The notes under the pieces were generated by a model. That model did not search any database and was not told the origin of the DNA. It saw only the letters and a list, made by a program, of their open reading frames with translations. A DNA stretch of 63,853 bases from NCBI GenBank assembly GCA_010024875.1, contig RGFZ01000012.1, positions 1 through 63,853 of the forward strand. The letters are read 5' to 3'. Each line of letters begins with the position of its first letter. The stretch's first letter is position 1. This document shows positions 36,545 through 46,311 of the stretch, piece after piece. A program made the position numbers and the translations under genes. The stretch is from Oxalobacteraceae bacterium. Lineage in GTDB: Bacteria; Pseudomonadota; Gammaproteobacteria; Burkholderiales; Burkholderiaceae_D.

Positions 36545-37006
36545 TCACCCTGCGTTTATCAACACCGAACGCTGTGCGTTGAAATTCTTTGAGCGAAATT
36601 TGCAGACAAAAAGCAGCCGGGCCTCGCCAGCCGAACCCGGCTTCACTCGATGGAATTTCAGTTTCGTGACCGGCTGCTCGGGCTCCTGATGCACGGGCTT
36701 GCCCTCCGGCTCGGTGGATACGAAGTAGGTGTTCGCGGTGTAGGCGATCTTCCCAGTGTCGCAGTCAAAATAATTCACGTACGTCGATGACTGGTAGGGC
36801 GTCTTGTCCGGTCCATATTGAGGCGCCGACCATGAGGTGCGCAGGAAGGCACGCAGGTATTCTTCCTCGCGAACGATGCTGGTCATGTCCACATACCAGC
36901 TGGTGATCTTGTCCTTGTCCTCGGTTTCAGAAATCAGTTTCCATTCCGTTGCGTTCGCTGTTGCGGAAATGAGCGCGATGCTCAGAGCGGTCAGTAGGTT
37001 GTTCAT
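36545..37006 (-). CDS. Surface-adhesin-E-like exported protein
   Basis: 153 aa with a signal peptide (residues 1-19, LLTALSIALISATANA) and GGAGGCACG before the ATG. The fold pattern WKLISETEDKDKITSWYVDMTSI followed by a Cys-containing YFDCDTGKIAY and a second Cys near the C-terminus resembles the small surface-adhesin protein E family. That name is historical and does not prove adhesion. No operon partner. Confidence 0.6.
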   Translation of the reverse strand: MNNLLTALSIALISATANATEWKLISETEDKDKITSWYVDMTSIVREEEYLRAFLRTSWSAPQYGPDKTPYQSSTYVNYFDCDTGKIAYTANTYFVSTEPEGKPVHQEPEQPVTKLKFHRVKPGSAGEARLLFVCKFRSKNFNAQRSVLINAG

Positions 37007-37087: not shown

Positions 37088-37894
37088 TCATTGACCATCG
37101 TAACCCAGCCGCCGCGACACATCGTGCGCACACGCCATCACTCGGCGCGCGATCTCTCCATTCCAGCTGACATCGAAACTGCCTGAAGGGCCGATCGCGG
37201 TAATGCCCAGTCGTATGGCACCGGTATGTTCAAACACGGGCGCGCAGATAGCATTGATGCCGGGAATGGGTTCGCCCTGTACCCGTGCCATGCCGCGCTT
37301 GCGCACATCTGACAATATGTCGTCCAGCGCGCTGGCCTTTTGACGAGGCGCGCCGAAGGCGCTGGCGATGCCATTGCGCTTTTCGTGATCGATCATGCGC
37401 TCGACCTGGCGGGGCGGCAGGAAGGCAGCAAATACTCTGCCGGTCGCGGTCGATTGTATCGACATGACCGTGCCGGTGCGCATGTTCACGTGAATGGGAT
37501 AACTGGACTCGGCGATGTAGATGATGGTCGGACCCTGATTGCCCAGTACCGACAAGCCTACCGTCTGATCGATCTCTGCGGCCAGCTGAGTGATCATGGG
37601 TATCGCGATACGCACCGGATCAAGCAGGTGCAGACTGATCAACCCGAGTTGCAGCGCAAACGGGCCCAGCTCGTAGCGACCCGTCAGCGGATCTTGTTCG
37701 ATCAGGCCGAAATTCCCGAAGCTCACCAAGTAAGGATGTGCCTTCGCCGAGGGCATGCCAGCCTTGCGGGCCAAGTCGCCCAGGCTCATCGGGCCGCCTT
37801 CCTCGACCAGCGCGGTCAGCAAGCGACCGCCGATCTCTATCGACTGTATGCCGCGGCGGCTCTTTTCTGAGGGAGATTGCGCTGTTTTGGTCAT
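37088..37894 (-). CDS. IclR-family transcriptional regulator of the adjacent catabolic cluster
   Basis: 268 aa. The N-terminal winged helix (about 15-80) has SIEIGGRLLTALVEEGGPMSLGDLARKAG. The C-terminal effector domain has GTVMSIQSTATGRVFAAFLP and GINAICAPVFEHTGAIRLGITAIG. IclR proteins bind small aromatic or aliphatic acids and usually control the divergent operon. Here that operon starts 115 bases away and encodes a hydrolase, hydroxylase, FAH and TRAP transporter. An inverted repeat at 37948-37983 is a candidate operator. Confidence 0.9.
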   Translation of the reverse strand: MTKTAQSPSEKSRRGIQSIEIGGRLLTALVEEGGPMSLGDLARKAGMPSAKAHPYLVSFGNFGLIEQDPLTGRYELGPFALQLGLISLHLLDPVRIAIPMITQLAAEIDQTVGLSVLGNQGPTIIYIAESSYPIHVNMRTGTVMSIQSTATGRVFAAFLPPRQVERMIDHEKRNGIASAFGAPRQKASALDDILSDVRKRGMARVQGEPIPGINAICAPVFEHTGAIRLGITAIGPSGSFDVSWNGEIARRVMACAHDVSRRLGYDGQ

Positions 37895-37947
37895 GCTGTC
37901 GATGTGCTAAGGCGTGTTCGGTTCCCGATGGGTGCTCATCCAACGTC

Positions 37948-37983
37948 GTTCGTCAATAACAAACGAGTTGACTAAAGACGAAC
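37948..37983. promoter_or_regulatory. Inverted repeat between the IclR gene and the catabolic operon
   Basis: GTTCGTC and GACGAAC form 7-bp arms separated by 22 bases. A TTGACT at 37968 could be the -35 of the rightward promoter. Position suggests a binding site for the IclR regulator; this is inference. Confidence 0.35.
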
Positions 37984-38008
37984 TGCATCTTACCCTTAAA
38001 GGCAAACA

Positions 38009-39019
38009 ATGAACAGCGACCCGCAACCCGGTGAGCTGCCTGATCCGGAGACCACCATGAGCGCCAAGCCCTTCGCCTCGCAAGCCGACCTCGAAGAAAA
38101 AAAGACCAGTTTCATCAAGCTGTCTGACAACGCGTATGCGTACACCGCCGAGGGCGATCCGAATTCCGGCGTGATCATCGGTGACGATTCGGTGATGGTG
38201 ATCGACACCACGGCCACCCCAGTGATGGCGCAGGCGCTGATCAAACACATCCGCGATATCACCGACTTGCCGATCAAATACGTGACGCTGACGCACTACC
38301 ATGCAGTTCGTGTGTTGGGTGCGTCGGCCTATGTCAAGGAGGGTGCGCAGCAGGTGATTGCCTCGCGTGGGACCTACGAACTGATCGTCGAACGTGGCGA
38401 ACAGGATATGCAATCTGAGATCGACCGCTTTCCCCGTCTGTTTGCTGGTGTGGAGTCGGTGCCCGGGTTGACTTGGCCGACGCTGGTGTTCGAGCGCGAG
38501 ATGACGCTATTCATGGGCAAGCTCGAGGTCAAGATCATGCATGTCGGCATGGGACATACCAAGGGCGACACCATTGTCTGGATACCTTCGCAAAAAGTAC
38601 TTTTCTCTGGCGATCTGGTCGAGTACGAGGCGGCTGCCTACACTGGCGATGCGCAACTTGAGGAATGGCCGCAGACGTTGGAGGTGCTGCGCTCCATGGG
38701 CGCGCAAAAGCTGGTACCCGGACGCGGGCCGGCGCTGGTGAATCCCGAGCAGGTCAACCAGGGACTGGATTACACCAAAGATTTCGTGACCACCTTGCTT
38801 TCCAGTGCCAGAGAGGCGGTGCAGGCGGGTTATGACCTGAAGGGCGCCATGGCTCACGTGCGTCGTCACATGGATGGCAAGTTCGGACATGTGTTCATCT
38901 ATGAGCACTGCCTGCCGTTCGATGTCACCCGCGCGGTGGACGAGGCCAAAGGCATCAAGCATCCGCGCATCTGGACCGCAGAGCGTGACAAGGAAATGTG
39001 GCATGCGCTGCAGAGCTGA
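38009..39019 (+). CDS. MBL-fold hydrolase with altered metal motif
   Basis: 336 aa metallo-beta-lactamase-fold protein. The first metal motif, normally HxHxDH, reads THYHAVRVLGA: the first two His are kept but the Asp and third His are replaced by Val and Arg. The later ligands appear kept: GMGHTKGDT and FSGDLVE. It may therefore bind one metal or use an unusual site. ATG at 38009 has AAAGG upstream; Met17 is an alternative. It is the first gene of the operon and lies 36 bases before the flavin hydroxylase. The substrate is unknown but is probably an ester, lactone or thioester in the pathway. Confidence 0.82.
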   Translation: MNSDPQPGELPDPETTMSAKPFASQADLEEKKTSFIKLSDNAYAYTAEGDPNSGVIIGDDSVMVIDTTATPVMAQALIKHIRDITDLPIKYVTLTHYHAVRVLGASAYVKEGAQQVIASRGTYELIVERGEQDMQSEIDRFPRLFAGVESVPGLTWPTLVFEREMTLFMGKLEVKIMHVGMGHTKGDTIVWIPSQKVLFSGDLVEYEAAAYTGDAQLEEWPQTLEVLRSMGAQKLVPGRGPALVNPEQVNQGLDYTKDFVTTLLSSAREAVQAGYDLKGAMAHVRRHMDGKFGHVFIYEHCLPFDVTRAVDEAKGIKHPRIWTAERDKEMWHALQS

Positions 39020-39055
39020 GCTGGCCGAGCCAGACACAACGCCTGAAAGCGCAAC

Positions 39056-40726
39056 ATGCATCAAACCTACACCTACAACAAGTTTGCCTATCAAGCGCCA
39101 CCCGAGCTCAAGGGTGGCCCGGTCCATCGCCATCCGTTGGTCGTCGTGGGTGCCGGCCCGGTGGGGCTGGCAGCCGCGATCGACGCGCGCCAGCAGGGTA
39201 TTCCCGTGTTGCTGCTCGATGAGGATGACACGGTATCGGTCGGTTCGCGCGGCCTGTGCTATGCGAAACGCACGCTGGAAATTCTCGATCGTCTGGGATG
39301 CGGCGATGCCGTTGCCAGCAAGGGTGTGGGATGGGATGTGGGGCGCACCTTCTTCCGCAACCAGGAAGTGTTCAACTTTAATCTGAGGCCGCAGCCGGGT
39401 TACAAGCGTCCCGGCATGGTTAATCTGCAGCAGTATTATCTGGAAGAATATCTGGTGAAGCGCGCTGAGGAAGCGGGCGTAAAACTGCGATGGAAAAACA
39501 AAGTAATTAATGTGCAGCCGCAGGGTGATCATGTGCGCCTGCAGGTAGAGACGCCCGAGGGCAGTTACGCGGTGGAGGCAGATTGGTTGATTGTCTGTGA
39601 TGGTGCGCGCAGCCCTATCCGAACCATGCTGGGGCTGGACATCGAGGGCAAGGTCTTCATGGATCGTTTCCTGATCGCCGACGTGATCATGAAGGCAGAT
39701 TTTCCTGCCGAGCGCTGGTTCTGGTTCGATCCGCCGTTTCATCCCAATCAGTCCGTTCTGCTGCACAGAGAAGCGGATGACGTCTACCGGATCGATTTTC
39801 AGCTGGGCTGGGATGCGGATCCTGAAGAAGAGAGAAAGCCTGAGAGGGTCATTTCGCGAATACGCGCGATGCTGGGCGATGAGCGCGAGTTCACGCTCGA
39901 ATGGGTGAGCGTGTATACCTTTCAGTGTCGTCGCATGAATGACTTTCGTCACGGACGCTGCCTGTTCGCCGGCGACGCGGCGCATCAGGTCTCGCCCTTT
40001 GGTGCGCGCGGCGCAAATTCCGGCGTGCAGGATGCGGATAACCTGATCTGGAAGCTCAAGCTGGTTATGGAGGGGTATGCGCCGCAGCGACTGCTGGATA
40101 CGTATACCGAGGAGCGTGTGTTCGCCGCAGATGAGAACATCATGAATTCGACGCGCTCAACAGACTTCATCGCGCCCAAGGGACGCATCAGCACAATCTT
40201 CCGTAATGCAGTACTGGAGCTATCCGGTGAGTTGCCATTTGCGCGCACGCTGGTCAACTCAGGTCGCTTGTCCGTACCGAGCTTTCTGATAACCACTTTG
40301 CTGAATACGCCGGACAGCGAGCCTTTCGATGGTGACATGCTGCCGGGCGCACCGATGGACGATGCGCCCGTCGACGCCAACGGCAAGCCGGGCTGGCTGA
40401 TCGATCATGTGGGAGGTAAGTTTCAGCTACTGTATTTTTGTGATGATCCATCGACTATTTCCGCTGCCATGCAGCAGCAGCTTCGAAGACTGACCGCAGC
40501 CACCATACCGGTGCATACCATCGTCATTGCGCGCAAAGCAGGACAGTGTTCACTCGATTGCGTCACTGACAGCCAAGGGCTGGCGTTCCAGCGTTATGAT
40601 GCCCGGCCCGGTACGGCCTATCTGATCCGTCCAGATCAGCATGTGACTGCCCGCTGGCGCGAGACGGAGGTGTCGCGCATCGTCGCGGCTGTAGCGCGTG
40701 CCACTGCCAATTTTGCCGAGGACTGA
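39056..40726 (+). CDS. FAD-dependent aromatic hydroxylase (MhpA/PHBH-like)
   Basis: 556 aa class A flavoprotein monooxygenase. The FAD motifs are all present: GAGPVGL (33-39), the DG motif IVCDGARSPIR, and the GD motif LFAGDAAHQVSPFGARGANSG. A C-terminal thioredoxin-like domain is present, as in MhpA (3-(3-hydroxyphenyl)propionate hydroxylase) and MhbM-type enzymes. Such enzymes use NAD(P)H and O2 to hydroxylate phenolic acids ortho or para to an existing hydroxyl. It is 4 bases from the DUF2783 gene. The exact substrate cannot be read from sequence. Confidence 0.88.
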   Translation: MHQTYTYNKFAYQAPPELKGGPVHRHPLVVVGAGPVGLAAAIDARQQGIPVLLLDEDDTVSVGSRGLCYAKRTLEILDRLGCGDAVASKGVGWDVGRTFFRNQEVFNFNLRPQPGYKRPGMVNLQQYYLEEYLVKRAEEAGVKLRWKNKVINVQPQGDHVRLQVETPEGSYAVEADWLIVCDGARSPIRTMLGLDIEGKVFMDRFLIADVIMKADFPAERWFWFDPPFHPNQSVLLHREADDVYRIDFQLGWDADPEEERKPERVISRIRAMLGDEREFTLEWVSVYTFQCRRMNDFRHGRCLFAGDAAHQVSPFGARGANSGVQDADNLIWKLKLVMEGYAPQRLLDTYTEERVFAADENIMNSTRSTDFIAPKGRISTIFRNAVLELSGELPFARTLVNSGRLSVPSFLITTLLNTPDSEPFDGDMLPGAPMDDAPVDANGKPGWLIDHVGGKFQLLYFCDDPSTISAAMQQQLRRLTAATIPVHTIVIARKAGQCSLDCVTDSQGLAFQRYDARPGTAYLIRPDQHVTARWRETEVSRIVAAVARATANFAED

Positions 40727-40730
40727 CATT

Positions 40731-40964
40731 ATGTCACTAATACTTGAGCCTAATTTTCGTGAAGCGGGCAAGCGATACTTTCGCGATTATTCACCCGGCG
40801 ATGATTTTTACCAGCACCTGATCGATCTGCACCAGGGCCTGAGCGAGGAGCAGAGTGCTCAGGTGAATGCAAAACTGATACTGATACTCTCCAACCATAT
40901 CGGTGATCTGCATGTGCTGCGCGAGGCAATGTCGCTGGCCCGCAGTGGCATCGCTGAATCCTGA
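40731..40964 (+). CDS. DUF2783 small protein
   Basis: 77 aa, starting at ATG 40731 four bases after the hydroxylase stop. The sequence DFYQHLIDLHQGLSEEQSAQ and LILILSNHIGDLHVLREAM fits DUF2783. It is helical with no signal peptide and no known function. Its tight placement behind the hydroxylase suggests an accessory subunit or chaperone; this is inference from context. Confidence 0.85.
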   Translation: MSLILEPNFREAGKRYFRDYSPGDDFYQHLIDLHQGLSEEQSAQVNAKLILILSNHIGDLHVLREAMSLARSGIAES

Positions 40965-40979
40965 ACCATCGGAGGACTT

Positions 40980-41531
40980 ATGTTGATCGAGCGAATCCAT
41001 CATGTCGCCTATCGCTGCAAAGATGCGAAAGAAACCGTCGACTGGTACACCCGGCACCTGGACATGACATTCATCCTCGCGATCGCCGAGAATGAGGTGC
41101 CGTCGACCAAGGCTCCCGATCCCTACATGCATGTATTTCTTGATGCGGGCAATGGCAATGTGCTGGCGTTTTTCGAGCTGCCGACCCAGCCTGAGATGGA
41201 CCGTGATCGCAATACCCCGGCCTGGGTGCAGCATTTGGCGATGAGGGTCGATTCGATGGAGACCTTGCTGGCCGCGAAAGCGAAGCTTCAGGCGGCGGGT
41301 ATCGATGTGATCGGCCCCACGGATCACACGATTTTCAAGAGTATTTATTTTTTCGATCCGAACGGTCACCGGTTGGAGCTGGCGTACGACTGCGGCACGC
41401 CGGAGATGTATCAGCAGCTTGACGAGGTGAAGTGGGACATGCTCAACGAATGGAGCAAGACAAAGAAAGCGCCGATGCATGCGCGATGGATGCATGATGG
41501 CAGCATGTCTTCTCAAGAGGACAGCTCGTGA
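40980..41531 (+). CDS. VOC-family protein (glyoxalase / extradiol dioxygenase-like)
   Basis: 183 aa. The start has GGAGGA at a good distance. Likely metal ligands of the vicinal oxygen chelate fold are His in ERIHHVAYRC, His in WVQHLAMRV and Glu in GHRLELAY, the set used by Fe(II) extradiol dioxygenases and related isomerases. A single-module length with a C-terminal tail (about 140-183) is seen. In this cluster it could cleave or isomerise the hydroxylated ring product. The FAH gene overlaps its stop codon. Confidence 0.85.
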   Translation: MLIERIHHVAYRCKDAKETVDWYTRHLDMTFILAIAENEVPSTKAPDPYMHVFLDAGNGNVLAFFELPTQPEMDRDRNTPAWVQHLAMRVDSMETLLAAKAKLQAAGIDVIGPTDHTIFKSIYFFDPNGHRLELAYDCGTPEMYQQLDEVKWDMLNEWSKTKKAPMHARWMHDGSMSSQEDSS

Positions 41532-42826
41532 GCAAACTGACGCCCAATGATCCCTCGCTAAGGAGCTGGGTCGATACGGCCAACCTTGCCGGCAGCGATT
41601 TCCCGATACAGAACCTGCCTTTCGGTATATTCAGCACACCCCAGTTGCGTACACCGCGCGCCGGGGTGGCGATTGGCGATCAGGTGCTGGATCTGTCTGT
41701 GCTGGAGTCAGTCGGACTGCTCACACCGGCCGCGCACAGGGTGTTCGATCAGACGACCCTGAATGATTTCATCGCGCTCGGGAAAAACACATGGCAGCGC
41801 GTGCGCGAGCAGGTCAGCCTGCTGCTTCGTGCTGATGAGGCACATCTGCGCGACAATGCATCGCTGCGTGCGCGCGCGCTCATTCCCTTGCAGCAGGTAA
41901 CGATGCACTTGCCGGTTAAGGTCGGTGGATATACGGATTTTTATTCTTCCAAAGAGCACGCTACCAATGTTGGTTCGATGTTTCGCGACCCGGCCAATGC
42001 CTTGCTGCCGAACTGGCTGCATCTTCCAGTGGGCTACAACGGCCGCGCCAGTTCAGTCGTCGTTAGTGGCACGGATATCCGACGTCCTGTGGGGCAGGTT
42101 AAGCCACCGACTGCCGATGTGCCCTCGTTTGCCCGCTGTACGAAGTTGGATTTCGAGCTCGAGACGGCATTCATCGTAGGTGCTGACACCGCATTGGGTG
42201 AACCGGTTTCGGTGGATCGCGCAGAATCGCTGATCTTCGGCATGGTGCTGTTGAACGACTGGAGCGCGCGCGATATTCAGCAATGGGAGTATGTACCACT
42301 GGGTCCATTCAACGCAAAAAGCTTCGCGACTTCAATCTCGCCCTGGATCGTCACGATGGGAGCACTTGAGCCCTTCCGCGTTCCAGGCCCGGTTCAGGAT
42401 CCGCCACCACTACCTTATCTGGCCCAGTCAGGTGCGCGGAGTTTCAATATCTCATTGTCGGTGGATTTGCAGCCGCAGGAGGCGCGCGAGGCCACCACGA
42501 TCTGTCGCACCAATTATCGCGCGATGTATTGGAGCATGGCGCAGCAGCTCGCGCATCACACGGTCTCCGGATGTAACGTTAGTGTGGGTGATCTGATGGC
42601 ATCGGGTACGATCAGCGGCAGTACCCCGGATTCCTGCGGTAGCCTGCTCGAGCTCGCATGGAATGGCCAGCGCCCGCTAACACTTGCTGATGGTAAGACT
42701 CAGCGCAGCTTTCTGGAGGATGGCGATCTAGTCACTATGCGCGGCTGGTGTCAGGGGGATACGTATCGCATCGGCTTTGGTGCTGTGCAAGGTCGCGTGC
42801 TGGCGGCAAATCATCAGCGCTTCTGA
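41528..42826 (+). CDS. Fumarylacetoacetase (FAH) family hydrolase
   Basis: 432 aa, the length of true fumarylacetoacetases rather than the short FAHD1-type. The GTG start overlaps the VOC stop (GTGA). YTDFYSSKEHATNVGSMFR gives the catalytic Asp and His and metal-binding Glu region; DFELETAFIVG and LLNDWSARDIQQWEY complete the divalent-metal site. FAH cleaves a carbon-carbon bond in 1,3-diketo acids, releasing fumarate and acetoacetate in the homogentisate route. Neither homogentisate dioxygenase nor a maleylacetoacetate isomerase is in the cluster. Confidence 0.9.
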   Translation: MSKLTPNDPSLRSWVDTANLAGSDFPIQNLPFGIFSTPQLRTPRAGVAIGDQVLDLSVLESVGLLTPAAHRVFDQTTLNDFIALGKNTWQRVREQVSLLLRADEAHLRDNASLRARALIPLQQVTMHLPVKVGGYTDFYSSKEHATNVGSMFRDPANALLPNWLHLPVGYNGRASSVVVSGTDIRRPVGQVKPPTADVPSFARCTKLDFELETAFIVGADTALGEPVSVDRAESLIFGMVLLNDWSARDIQQWEYVPLGPFNAKSFATSISPWIVTMGALEPFRVPGPVQDPPPLPYLAQSGARSFNISLSVDLQPQEAREATTICRTNYRAMYWSMAQQLAHHTVSGCNVSVGDLMASGTISGSTPDSCGSLLELAWNGQRPLTLADGKTQRSFLEDGDLVTMRGWCQGDTYRIGFGAVQGRVLAANHQRF

Positions 42827-42971
42827 AATTCCACACTGATTCTTCTCAGAAGTTATCATTGCGGTCGTTGAACGCCACGCAACATGCAGTTTGCGCTCGG
42901 TCGTTTGTTAATGTTGTTGATGGCATTCATACAAGTAAGCAGACGGGAAAACCCGCGCCTATGGAGGAGAC

Positions 42972-43514
42972 ATGCAGGAACCGGATCTGCTGGACACCGA
43001 GTCCAGCACGCGCTACGGCCCCTGGGGCCACAAGCTTCATCAGTTGACGCGCCTGTTTGCGATAGCAGGCGGTCTCGGCTTTGTCTGTCTGGTCGTGATG
43101 TCTCTGGTCTCGATTGTCGGTCGCAAGATCGCCTCCATGCCAGTCCCGGGGGATATCGAAGTGATGCAGATGGGTACCGCGATCGCATCGGCTGCGATGC
43201 TTGCCTATTGCGAGATGGAGCGCCATCACCTGCGCGTTGATTTTTTTACGGCGAACGTGTCGGCTAGTCTGCGCGAACGGCTGGATTCGCTGTCGCACTG
43301 GCTACTGGCCGCAGTAGCCGCGCTGGTGGCATGGCGTACAGGAGCGTCGGCATTGTCGCTGAAAGAGGCAGGCGAGACATCAATGATCCTCGCATGGCCC
43401 GTTTGGATGGTGGTTGCTGCGCTGGTACCTAGCTTTGCACTGCTGGCACTGGCGGGCGTGTACAACGCGGTACAGCACTGGCAGCTCGCCTCTGCAGAGG
43501 GAGAATCAGCATGA
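42972..43514 (+). CDS. TRAP transporter small permease (DctQ-like)
   Basis: 180 aa with four membrane segments, the DctQ topology. RKIASMPVPGDIEVMQMGTAIA is the conserved loop after the second helix. GGAGGAGAC precedes the ATG. It overlaps the large permease gene by four bases (ATGA). It pairs with DctM and the binding protein to import an organic acid using the sodium gradient. Confidence 0.92.
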   Translation: MQEPDLLDTESSTRYGPWGHKLHQLTRLFAIAGGLGFVCLVVMSLVSIVGRKIASMPVPGDIEVMQMGTAIASAAMLAYCEMERHHLRVDFFTANVSASLRERLDSLSHWLLAAVAALVAWRTGASALSLKEAGETSMILAWPVWMVVAALVPSFALLALAGVYNAVQHWQLASAEGESA

Positions 43515-44839
43515 GTGGCATGACCATTGGCATGATCATGTTTGCGTTTTTGCTGCTGATGCTGGCATTGCGCGTGCATATCGGCATCGGTATGTTCATC
43601 ATCGGCGGCGCAGGCTTTCTGGTGATGAATGACTACGCATTCGCACCGTTGCTCAATGCAGTGAAGAACCTTGCGTATTCCCGCTTTTCCAATTACGACC
43701 TTGCGGTGATACCACTGTTCATGCTGATGGGACAGTTCGCGACCAATGGTGGTTTGTCGCGTGCATTGTTCACGTGCGTGAATAATTTCGTTGGCCATTT
43801 TCGTGGCGGTGTGGCGATGGCAGCGGTGGGCGCCTGTGCTGCTTTCGGCGCTATCTGCGGATCTTCTCTCGCCACAGCGGCAACGATGGGTCAGGTGGCC
43901 TTGCCCGAGCTTCGTCGCTATAACTACGCGGGCTCGCTCGCCACGGGCGCACTAGCGGCTGGCGGTACGCTGGGCATCATGATTCCGCCCTCAGTGCCGC
44001 TGGTGATTTATGCGGTACTGACACAAGAATCGATCGGCAAACTCTTCATGGCTGCGATCGTGCCCGGTGTGATTGCGATGCTTGGTTACATGATCGTGAT
44101 ACGCATCGTGGTTGCCTTGAAGCCCGAGGCCGGTCCGGCCGGCGAGCGCGTTCCTCTGAGTGTCGCGCTGCGATCGCTGCTAGGCGTGATACCGATCTTG
44201 CTGGTGTTCGTGGTGGTCATCGTCGGTATTTATGGCGGCTGGGCCAACCCGACCGAGGCAGCGTCCATTGGTGTATTTGCCTGCGGCCTGCTGGCCATCA
44301 TTGGCGGTATGCGTATGGAGGGTATCGTCAAGAGCATCACGGGCACCGCGCAGGCAACAGCCATGATTTTTCTGGTACTGCTGGGTGCAGACATGCTTAA
44401 CGCCGGACTGGCGATCACCCAGATGCCGACCGAGCTGGCAAGCTGGGTGCAGGGGAGTGGCTTGCCGCCGTTGTCTGTGATTTTTGCGATCCTGCTGATC
44501 TATATTCTGCTTGGCTGCGTCATGGATTCGCTGGCGATGATTCTGCTGACGATTCCCATCTTCTATCCCATCGTGATGGGGCTGGATTTCTGGGGCATGA
44601 CGACTACGGATAAATCCATCTGGTTCGGTATCCTGGCATTGATGGTGGTCGAGATCGGTCTCGTTCATCCGCCCGTGGGTATGAATATCTACATCATCAA
44701 TCGTCTGGCCAAAGATGTCCCGGTGATGGAGACCTTCAAGGGCGTGCTGCCTTTCTTGGCATCGGATCTGGTACGCATCATCGCTTTGGTATTTTTCCCG
44801 GTGCTGTCACTGTATTTGGTACACACTTTTGGTGGCTGA
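43511..44839 (+). CDS. TRAP transporter large permease (DctM-like)
   Basis: 442 aa with about twelve membrane segments. Family blocks include GGVAMAAVGACAAFGAICGSS and GALAAGGTLGIMIPPSVPLVIYA, characteristic of DctM elevator-type transport domains. The gene overlaps dctQ by four bases and almost abuts the binding-protein gene, giving a DctQ-DctM-DctP order. Intact. Confidence 0.94.
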   Translation: MSGMTIGMIMFAFLLLMLALRVHIGIGMFIIGGAGFLVMNDYAFAPLLNAVKNLAYSRFSNYDLAVIPLFMLMGQFATNGGLSRALFTCVNNFVGHFRGGVAMAAVGACAAFGAICGSSLATAATMGQVALPELRRYNYAGSLATGALAAGGTLGIMIPPSVPLVIYAVLTQESIGKLFMAAIVPGVIAMLGYMIVIRIVVALKPEAGPAGERVPLSVALRSLLGVIPILLVFVVVIVGIYGGWANPTEAASIGVFACGLLAIIGGMRMEGIVKSITGTAQATAMIFLVLLGADMLNAGLAITQMPTELASWVQGSGLPPLSVIFAILLIYILLGCVMDSLAMILLTIPIFYPIVMGLDFWGMTTTDKSIWFGILALMVVEIGLVHPPVGMNIYIINRLAKDVPVMETFKGVLPFLASDLVRIIALVFFPVLSLYLVHTFGG

Positions 44840-44855
44840 CGGGGGAGGGATGAGT

Positions 44856-45881
44856 ATGCGCATGAAAATTACTCTGGCAATGCTGGCACTGGGCGGTTCT
44901 GCTATTTTCGCTTCCGGTGGAGTGCTCGGCCAGACGGTCACCTTGAAGGTGCATCACTTTTTGCCGCCCGGATCGACGGCGCACAAGAATTTCATCGTCC
45001 CCTGGTGCGAAAAGATCGCCAAGGATTCAGGAGGCAAGCTGAAGTGTCAAATTTATCCGGCGATGCAGCTCGGCGGTTCTCCGCCACAGCTTTACGATCA
45101 GGTCAAAGATGGTGTGGTCGATCTGGTCTGGACCGTGCCAAGTTTTCAGGCAGGGCGCTTTCCAGTCATCGAGGCCTTCGAGCTGCCATTCATGGTGCGT
45201 GACACCGAGCGCGCCAGCCGCGGGCTTTGGTATTACGCCATGAAGAATGCCGTTGCAGAGTTCAAGGGCGTTAAGCCCATTCTGTTGCATGTGCATGATG
45301 GTTCACTCGTACACACGGCGAAAAAACAAGTGAGGACGCTCGAAGATTTCAAAGGTTTGAAGCTGCGCGTGCCGACTCGTCAGGGGTCGAAAACCCTGGT
45401 AGCGCTCGGCGCGATGCCGGTGTCCATGCCGTTGTCTCAGACAGCGGAGGCGATTTCCAAAGGGGTTATTGACGGCGTGCTGCTGCCATGGGAAGTGATT
45501 CCCTCTGTGAAGTTTGATGAAGTGACCAAGTTTCATACGGAGTCCGAGGCGGGTGAGGCGCAGATGTCGAATAGCGTATTCCTTTTTGGCATGAATCAAG
45601 AAAAATACGATGCACTACCTGCCGAGCTGAAAAAAGTTATCGATGCCAACAGCGGTCCAGAGCCGTCTGCCTGGGTCGGCAAAGTATTCGTTGACGATGC
45701 CCTTCCGGGAAAAAAATCCGCAGAAATCAGAAAAAATATTTTTTATACATTACCGACGCTGGAATTACGCCGGTGGGAAAAGGCGACGGCCGGCGTCAGC
45801 GACGAGTGGGTCAGGGAGATGTCAGCAAAAGGTCTTGATGGAAAACGATTACTGGAGGAAGCGAAAGCAGCGTGCAAATGA
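44856..45881 (+). CDS. TRAP transporter substrate-binding protein (DctP family)
   Basis: 341 aa with a signal peptide (LAMLALGGSAIFASGGVLGQ). Three ATGs are close together; I chose 44856 because GGAGG lies seven bases upstream, and 44850 would be too close. Domain features are KLKCQIYPAMQLGGSPPQLYDQV, then the conserved arginine in GLKLRVPTRQGSKTL that binds the carboxylate of the ligand. The ligand is therefore probably an organic acid, consistent with the catabolic genes upstream. A terminator follows. Confidence 0.92.
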   Translation: MRMKITLAMLALGGSAIFASGGVLGQTVTLKVHHFLPPGSTAHKNFIVPWCEKIAKDSGGKLKCQIYPAMQLGGSPPQLYDQVKDGVVDLVWTVPSFQAGRFPVIEAFELPFMVRDTERASRGLWYYAMKNAVAEFKGVKPILLHVHDGSLVHTAKKQVRTLEDFKGLKLRVPTRQGSKTLVALGAMPVSMPLSQTAEAISKGVIDGVLLPWEVIPSVKFDEVTKFHTESEAGEAQMSNSVFLFGMNQEKYDALPAELKKVIDANSGPEPSAWVGKVFVDDALPGKKSAEIRKNIFYTLPTLELRRWEKATAGVSDEWVREMSAKGLDGKRLLEEAKAACK

Positions 45882-46311
45882 TTTTAAAAATACTTTGAAA
45901 ACATTTCGGAAAAGGTAAATCATGCGAATGGCATGACAACTCGACAAACCGTGCGAGGTAAACAAGCATCCTTCTGGGTGCTTTTTTTATGGCGTAAAAG
46001 TTCTTGCTTGAAGGTGTTGCCGGAGAGTTTTCCCGAACTCCAAGAACTGTAAAGACTGTTAATATTAATTTTTGAATAATTATTCGCAAGTCATTGAATA
46101 TTAAACAAAAAATGTATTTCTCCCACAGTAATGCTTATTCGATCGGCAAGCTTGTCGTAAAAAAATGCATGTTTGGTGACCTATTTTTGATCAAAAGCTT
46201 GAAAATGTTGCAGCGATGACATATAAATTAGCATTCGAGTAATTGCTCGTGGGCAATGGCGCCAAATAGTAAGCCTTTGCCGCTCAACCAAATTCCGAGG
46301 GGAGAGACACC
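45882..46311. other. AT-rich intergenic region
   Basis: Beyond the terminator, about 45990-46250 is markedly AT-rich compared with its surroundings and has no credible gene. It must contain the promoter of the following helix-turn-helix gene. AT-rich DNA like this often marks silencing by nucleoid proteins or imported DNA; nothing more is seen. Confidence 0.4.
45964..45988 (+). terminator. Rho-independent terminator of the TRAP operon
   Basis: Stem AAGCATCC/GGGTGCTT with a TTCT loop and further Ts, about 80 bases after the dctP stop. Confidence 0.85.

Follow-up and report, generated by a model that had tools for sequence, protein, structure and literature searches.

A predicted hydroxyphenylacetate operon with a VOC-type candidate homogentisate 1,2-dioxygenase in an Oxalobacteraceae bacterium

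A candidate operon for hydroxyphenylacetate degradation

Which aromatic compound is broken down by the gene cluster at positions 37088-45881 of a 63,853-nucleotide stretch of Oxalobacteraceae bacterium DNA (contig RGFZ01000012.1 of assembly GCA_010024875.1, hereafter the window), and which of its products opens the ring? An earlier note made from the sequence had presented the cluster as an undescribed module whose substrate could not be named. We conclude, with a probability of roughly 0.83, that it is an IclR-controlled operon for a hydroxyphenylacetate, degraded via homogentisate with a VOC-type homogentisate dioxygenase. The identity of its FAH protein, the orthology of its VOC protein to PDB entry 9U42 and the likeness of two further products to MhaA and MhaB together allow homogentisate to be named as the central intermediate. 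The substrate is thus narrowed to a hydroxyphenylacetate, and the cluster reads as a variant of the known homogentisate route, with likenesses to the mhaAB-hmgABC genes.

Eight genes on the + strand (38009-45881) lie behind a divergent IclR gene; the earlier note had counted seven. The genes that it named and their order were all confirmed by coordinates and domain matches, as was the divergence from the regulator, which is encoded on the - strand and is also divergent in several relatives.

37088-37894, - strand: IclR-family regulator (PF01614 and PF09339), divergent from the operon
38009-39019, + strand: MBL-fold protein with an altered metal motif (PF00753)
39056-40726, + strand: flavin adenine dinucleotide (FAD)-dependent ring hydroxylase, candidate MhaA-type large component, 556 amino acids (PF01494; NF006002, 831 bits)
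40731-40964, + strand: DUF2783 protein, 77 amino acids, probably an MhaB-type coupling component (PF10932, 93 bits)
40980-41531, + strand: predicted VOC-type homogentisate 1,2-dioxygenase (PDB 9u42, 250 bits, 62% identity)
41528-42826, + strand: fumarylacetoacetase, FahA/HmgB (TIGR01266, 599.1 bits; 5ti1, 620 bits)
42972-43514, + strand: TRAP small permease DctQ (PF04290)
43511-44839, + strand: TRAP large permease DctM (PF06808; TIGR00786 above cut-off)
44850-45881, + strand: TRAP solute-binding protein DctP, TarP-like aromatic-acid type (ATG start; TTG at 44829 is a possible alternative)

In the proposed route, the TRAP transporter would bring in an aromatic acid, and a flavin hydroxylase of the MhaAB type, together with the DUF2783 protein as its coupling partner, would hydroxylate the hydroxyphenylacetate to homogentisate, 3-hydroxyphenylacetate (3-HPA) being the likeliest substrate and 4-hydroxyphenylacetate (4-HPA) the next. 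The VOC protein would then open homogentisate to maleylacetoacetate, an enzyme encoded outside the operon would perform the cis-trans isomerization, and fumarylacetoacetase would yield fumarate and acetoacetate.

The VOC protein as candidate homogentisate dioxygenase

The closest solved protein to the VOC protein is PDB 9u42 (phmmer and Foldseek; the match spans residues 3-176), released on 2025-07-23 under the title 'Crystal Structure of Homogentisate 1,2-Dioxygenase from Acinetobacter in Complex with Zn ion', and the sequence orthology of the two is clear. In an alignment in which positions were counted by hand, His85, His116, Tyr123 and Glu133 of the VOC protein correspond to His214, His246, Tyr255 and Glu265 of catechol 2,3-dioxygenase 1mpy, residues that we take to be catalytic in that enzyme. 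The window protein carries the 2-His-1-Glu metal site together with the extradiol His and Tyr, and His8, His85, His116, Tyr123 and Glu133 are invariant in 17 aligned VOC sequences, namely, the window protein and 16 others that are 46 to 87% identical to it. Orthology to 9U42, these active-site residues and the gene context support the earlier proposal that the VOC protein is the ring-opening enzyme, and they point to a single-domain, Fe(II) extradiol-type protein that would open homogentisate in place of the cupin HmgA. NCBIfam and Pfam assign no specific function to this protein or to the DUF2783 protein.

The second line of evidence came from the FAH protein, which the earlier note had rightly taken for the C-C hydrolase. 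It scored 599.1 bits with TIGR01266, against a cut-off of 375.3, and 620 bits with the solved fumarylacetoacetase 5ti1. Since it is a true fumarylacetoacetase, homogentisate is the compound whose ring is expected to be cleaved. On this identity and on 9u42, an unnamed ring-cleavage substrate was rejected.

We then considered the rest of the source genome, a 3.02-Mb assembly that is 96.7% complete. It contains one TIGR01266 FAH and one DUF2783 gene, and neither HPPD nor, window included, the cupin HmgA (PF04209) gave a match in it. As HPPD is missing, homogentisate would come from the operon hydroxylase rather than from tyrosine. The earlier claim that no classical ring-cleavage dioxygenase is present thus held for HmgA throughout the genome, but a gentisate-type cluster with downstream genes of its own was found elsewhere. 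It occupies positions 17000-34000 of contig C25 (L159) and encodes a Rieske oxygenase, a ferredoxin reductase, a gentisate-dioxygenase-like cupin, recognized by eye from its sequence, an FAH-family hydrolase, a MaiA-type isomerase and an aromatic-acid MFS transporter. A gentisate route for the operon was rejected, as this cluster is separate and supplies an FAH-family hydrolase and a MaiA-type isomerase for itself.

These results bear on two other readings. The earlier note's own view, in which the pathway is undescribed, its substrate has nothing to do with homogentisate and the VOC protein is a new ring-cleavage enzyme, would agree with the absence of HmgA from the genome and with the silence of NCBIfam and Pfam on the VOC and DUF2783 proteins. 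It appears very unlikely to us, however, given that the FAH protein is a fumarylacetoacetase, that the title of 9u42 names a homogentisate dioxygenase, that VOC orthologues adjoin HPPD or MaiA and that HmgA occupies the same slot. We regard as most improbable a reading in which an enzyme encoded elsewhere cleaves the ring and the VOC protein acts as an accessory glyoxalase or supplies the missing maleylacetoacetate isomerase activity: MaiA and VOC co-occur in many loci, the genome has no HmgA match, the His and Tyr that are catalytic in extradiol enzymes are invariant, and 9u42 was deposited as a dioxygenase.

One slot, several dioxygenases

VOC orthologues were mostly found beside other genes of the homogentisate pathway. 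In A. baumannii the order is fahA-maiA-VOC-IclR, together with hppD, and in Ideonella it is hppD-VOC-fahA, with overlapping gene ends. In Acinetobacter NCu2D-2, the hydroxylase, a small DUF2783-like protein (14.8 bits, below the cut-off) and IclR are followed by fahA-maiA-VOC-CoA transferase-thiolase, and an amine oxidase gene lies in the vicinity. A VOC orthologue scoring at least 290 bits was found in 27 of 200 genomes of the same order as the source (the match in G175 holds an internal stop). A homogentisate-pathway gene, that is, HPPD, MaiA, fumarylacetoacetase or the hydroxylase, lies within 6 kb at 21 of the 27 loci; such a neighbour, sought over the same distance, was also present at 70 of the best 80 named VOC loci.

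The 36 strong DUF2783 matches in the 200 genomes (five below 30 bits excluded; two are copies in one genome) gave a direct view of the ring-cleavage slot, which is filled by VOC at 11 loci, by HmgA at 7 (two of them copies within one genome), by an HmgA-like cupin at 6 and by a second VOC subfamily at 3. In a quick hydroxylase tree with some open forks, leaving aside rows that lack a dioxygenase and a single locus that has both, the dioxygenase type switches at least six times, the minimum for four states being three. HPPD loci make the same choice, with VOC or an HmgA-like gene adjoining HPPD, mostly together with MaiA. At least one of VOC, HmgA and HmgA-like was detected in 47 of the 51 HPPD genomes; VOC was the sole kind detected in 16, a count that includes G175, with its stop inside the VOC match, and that was made with no search model specific to HmgA-like proteins.

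The four HPPD genomes with none of these three (G049, G093, G133 and G137) all have a member of the second VOC subfamily, scoring 165 to 176 bits. Judged by eye, the H/H/E and H/Y positions are likewise retained in the member from G049, and this subfamily may be a further version of homogentisate dioxygenase. The same four genomes also carry DUF2783 and MBL, and an example of the second subfamily lies at L117:11550-12182 on the - strand. The divergent HmgA-like cupin, of about 380 amino acids, is a third version of the slot and adjoins either HPPD or the hydroxylase-DUF2783 pair (L115, L116, L126, L127, L131, L135-L137 and L143-L145). These cupins scored 21 to 29 bits with PF04209 or went undetected by it, and that of L115 scored 60 bits with PF20510; they were added by hand where a locus was inspected (G013, G065, G092 and G192), which makes the number given for them a minimum. 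Locus L009 of Azohydromonas aeria, which encodes HmgA, FAH and MBL on one strand and the hydroxylase, DUF2783 and VOC on the opposite strand, may be an intermediate of dioxygenase replacement.

Points against the proposed route

Several observations weigh against the reading of the operon as a hydroxyphenylacetate-homogentisate operon. The literature search found no paper on 9U42, so the dioxygenase identity of that entry is taken from its title; nor was a VOC-type homogentisate dioxygenase shown in the literature searched, which included passages of PMC12718150. The AlphaFold model of the VOC protein is only fair (pLDDT 72.4) and superposes poorly on 9u42 (TM score 0.41, root mean square deviation 16.4), so that the link to this entry rests on sequence. 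Methylmalonyl-CoA epimerases head the structural neighbours of the model, extradiol dioxygenases and HPPD also occur among them, and 9u42 is not among the matches listed; given this mixture, the fold alone is not decisive.

Gene content raises further objections. No recognized homogentisate-pathway neighbour lies within 6 kb at 6 of the 27 VOC loci or at 10 of the best 80 named ones, and no homogentisate dioxygenase was recognized nearby at 9 of the 36 DUF2783 loci. Seven of the 200 genomes have both VOC and HmgA, with 3.9 expected (Fisher p 0.08, positive direction), while 20 genomes have only VOC and 22 only HmgA, the latter counted at 190 bits or more with ten matches of 21 to 29 bits set apart. 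A simple genome-wide anticorrelation was sought and not seen, as genomes with both are not fewer than chance predicts. Both enzymes depend on a genome having the pathway, which tempers their co-occurrence. The operon has no maleylacetoacetate isomerase gene, and the sole MaiA match above the cut-off in the genome (290 bits) is the one in the apparent salicylate/gentisate cluster of contig C25. This MaiA may serve both routes, or the fumarylacetoacetase may accept the cis form. Finally, the hydroxylase and the DUF2783 protein were assigned to the MhaAB type by size and gene order.

Hydroxylase, DUF2783 and the choice of substrate

According to passages of PMC3053370, the 3-HPA 6-hydroxylase of P. 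putida U consists of MhaA, a flavoprotein of 566 amino acids, and MhaB, a coupling protein of 60 amino acids, and the mhaA and mhaB genes of P. xenovorans LB400 adjoin hmgA1B1C1. Locus tags in passages of PMC10983741 give the LB400 order as MhaA, MhaB, HmgA1, HmgB1, HmgC1. In the window, an FAD_binding_3 hydroxylase of 556 amino acids is likewise followed by a small protein, of 77 amino acids, and homogentisate genes adjoin the pair, VOC and FAH here and HmgA at 7 of the 36 DUF2783 loci. The two proteins thus appear to match MhaA and MhaB in described size and gene order, the features on which they were compared, in line with the ring hydroxylation step of the earlier note. The same note had given DUF2783 no known role, which now seems too strong. 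The hydroxylase is present at 35 of the 36 DUF2783 loci, answering the earlier suggestion to examine their co-occurrence across genomes, and size, position and co-occurrence suggest that DUF2783 is probably an MhaB-type coupling protein.

The hydroxylase tree has two clades, both with VOC and with DUF2783 or a DUF2783-like protein; the window and Acinetobacter enzymes are 37% identical, and DUF2783 as Pfam detects it marks the window's clade, not the Acinetobacter-like one. As the clades are distant, their isomer specificity may differ. We therefore weighed a variant of the same pathway in which the hydroxylase is a 4-HPA 1-hydroxylase, acting with side-chain migration, instead of a 3-HPA 6-hydroxylase. 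The distance between the clades leaves room for such a difference in substrate. Pseudomonas acidovorans and Azoarcus evansii are reported, in work cited in the passages of PMC3053370, to carry out 4-HPA 1-hydroxylation, and the binding proteins closer to DctP include TarP_Rhp in complex with 4-HPA. However, the two-component relative from P. putida U does not accept 4-HPA, as stated in passages of PMC10983741. We consider the 4-HPA variant possible, though on the doubtful side, and keep 3-HPA as the likeliest substrate.

Transport

The earlier note had read the cluster as a catabolic-import operon taking up an organic acid and had proposed that the ligand of DctP be predicted by structure. DctP matches the solved TarP and aromatic-acid binding proteins 5im2, 5i7i, 7nr2 and 7nqg over its whole length, with 28 to 47% identity. 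In the 11 matches listed, rows 2 to 10 are aromatic-acid binders by title, row 11 is an open form, and the first-ranked neighbour, 5im2, is left out of this tally. The nearest solved structures thus largely bind aromatic acids, which suggests an aromatic acid as the likely cargo of the TRAP transporter.

The MBL protein

Proteins of the metallo-beta-lactamase fold canonically carry the motif HxHxDH and a later His. The MBL protein of the window and its orthologues have HYHAVR and PGRG instead: among 55 aligned proteins, which include some genomes twice, HYHAVR is present in 54, with one undetermined, and PGRG and HCxPFD are present in all 55. GHTKGD and GD are further motifs of this rebuilt metal site. 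The closest solved protein, 8d2z (579 bits), is a functionally unnamed member of the subfamily.

The distribution of this protein follows that of DUF2783. Each was found in 34 of the 200 genomes, 33 of them shared (Fisher p 2e-35, uncorrected for kinship), and the two lie within one stretch at 26 of the 36 DUF2783 loci; the ten loci lacking MBL in the stretch come from nine genomes, and in eight of these it is encoded elsewhere. At DUF2783 loci, MBL is retained when the ring-cleavage enzyme is swapped. The loci of the Acinetobacter-like hydroxylase clade carry no MBL label in the tree.

A role for MBL as a replacement of MaiA was dropped. At 72 loci with a ring-cleavage enzyme and the hydroxylase and no HPPD nearby, 7 have both proteins, 24 neither, 37 MBL alone and 4 MaiA alone (duplicates L091, L106 and L133 were excluded; further genomes present in two collections may still contribute loci twice). 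Of the 24 with neither, 21 have a long FAH and 3 have no FAH. MaiA mostly accompanies a short FAH, as at 30 of the 36 MaiA loci in the same table. Three further loci have MBL with VOC and neither hydroxylase nor HPPD within 6.5 kb, a hint of a role on the homogentisate side. Our best guess is that MBL hydrolyzes the substrate or product in its lactone, ester or thioester form. We tentatively propose an unrecognized near-obligatory or protective function of the MhaAB-type route, in which MBL would free hydroxyphenylacetate from an ester or thioester or rescue a lactone formed as a shunt product, either by the hydroxylase or from homogentisate.

Control region, spacing and flanking features

Two palindromes lie between the IclR and MBL genes, and a hairpin follows DctP:

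37949-37963: palindrome TTCGTCAATAACAAA, likely IclR operator
37968-37982: second, weaker palindrome, overlapping a TTGACT -35-like box
45964-45983, + strand: terminator-like hairpin and T run closing the operon after DctP, from a sequence scan

The first palindrome has 1 match in the window when one mismatch is allowed, with 0.03 expected, and its exact 15-mer occurs in only 4 of 159 loci. The layout TTGACT-N17-TAnnnT is alike in at least 4 of 7 relatives' intergenic sequences, as judged by eye. The two palindromes resemble paired IclR operators and are likely, putative binding sites of the regulator. In all, 10 such terminator-like sites were found, with 9.3 expected from shuffles, so the evidence for the hairpin is weak.

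Within each half of the operon, the genes are as tightly packed as the earlier note had said. The spacings are 36 bases between MBL and the hydroxylase, 4 between the hydroxylase and DUF2783, 15 between DUF2783 and VOC and 10 between DctM and DctP; VOC and FAH overlap by GTGA and DctQ and DctM by ATGA. This does not extend to FAH and DctQ, which are 145 bases apart and show no sign of a leader RNA between them (z -0.10; Rfam was not searched). Since the order IclR-MBL-hydroxylase-DUF2783-VOC-FAH was found again in other genomes (for example, L002, L010, L024, L045 and L092), the arrangement is not due to chance. The closest named relative is a Burkholderiaceae metagenome assembly (L024, which is the same contig as L091 of G141). 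An Adhesin_E protein (PF16747) is encoded at 36545-37006, just past the IclR gene, with apparently no tie to the operon.

Significance and comparison with known systems

In the literature searched, this set of genes did not occur together, DUF2783 was given no role under its own name, and the MBL partner, sought by name only via its PDB code, did not appear. The operon is a variant of a known pathway whose component parts are known separately, and what is still new about it is the MBL step and the frequency with which VOC takes the place of HmgA. Some genomes seemingly devoid of a homogentisate dioxygenase carry one annotated 'VOC family protein'. If the activity is as predicted, what looks like a gap in the catabolism of tyrosine and hydroxyphenylacetate would be closed, DUF2783 would gain a testable role as a coupling protein, and the MBL partner would be isolated as a question. 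One operon slot filled by unrelated enzymes would be a case of non-orthologous replacement.

The window VOC protein and 9U42 are orthologous single-domain proteins that share their catalytic positions in the alignment. Their contexts differ, since the 9U42-type orthologue of A. baumannii sits with HPPD, on the tyrosine route, whereas the window protein sits with a hydroxyphenylacetate-type hydroxylase. Compared with the cupin HmgA, the VOC protein would catalyze the same reaction from the same slot in sister operons, but the folds are unrelated. DctP resembles the TarP and aromatic-acid TRAP binding proteins in fold, and its presumed cargo follows from that likeness.

At Sphaerotilus sulfidivorans plasmid locus L085, IclR, MBL, hydroxylase, DUF2783, VOC and FahA are ordered as in the window, but a TctC-type binding protein, encoded between DUF2783 and VOC, takes the place of a TRAP system. 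With the mhaAB-hmgABC genes of LB400, as described in passages of the two papers cited above, the window shares a two-component flavin hydroxylase, a large FAD protein with a small partner, directly upstream of homogentisate genes. It differs from them in having VOC in place of HmgA, a partner protein of 77 instead of about 60 amino acids, no HmgC isomerase gene, and an added MBL gene and TRAP transporter.

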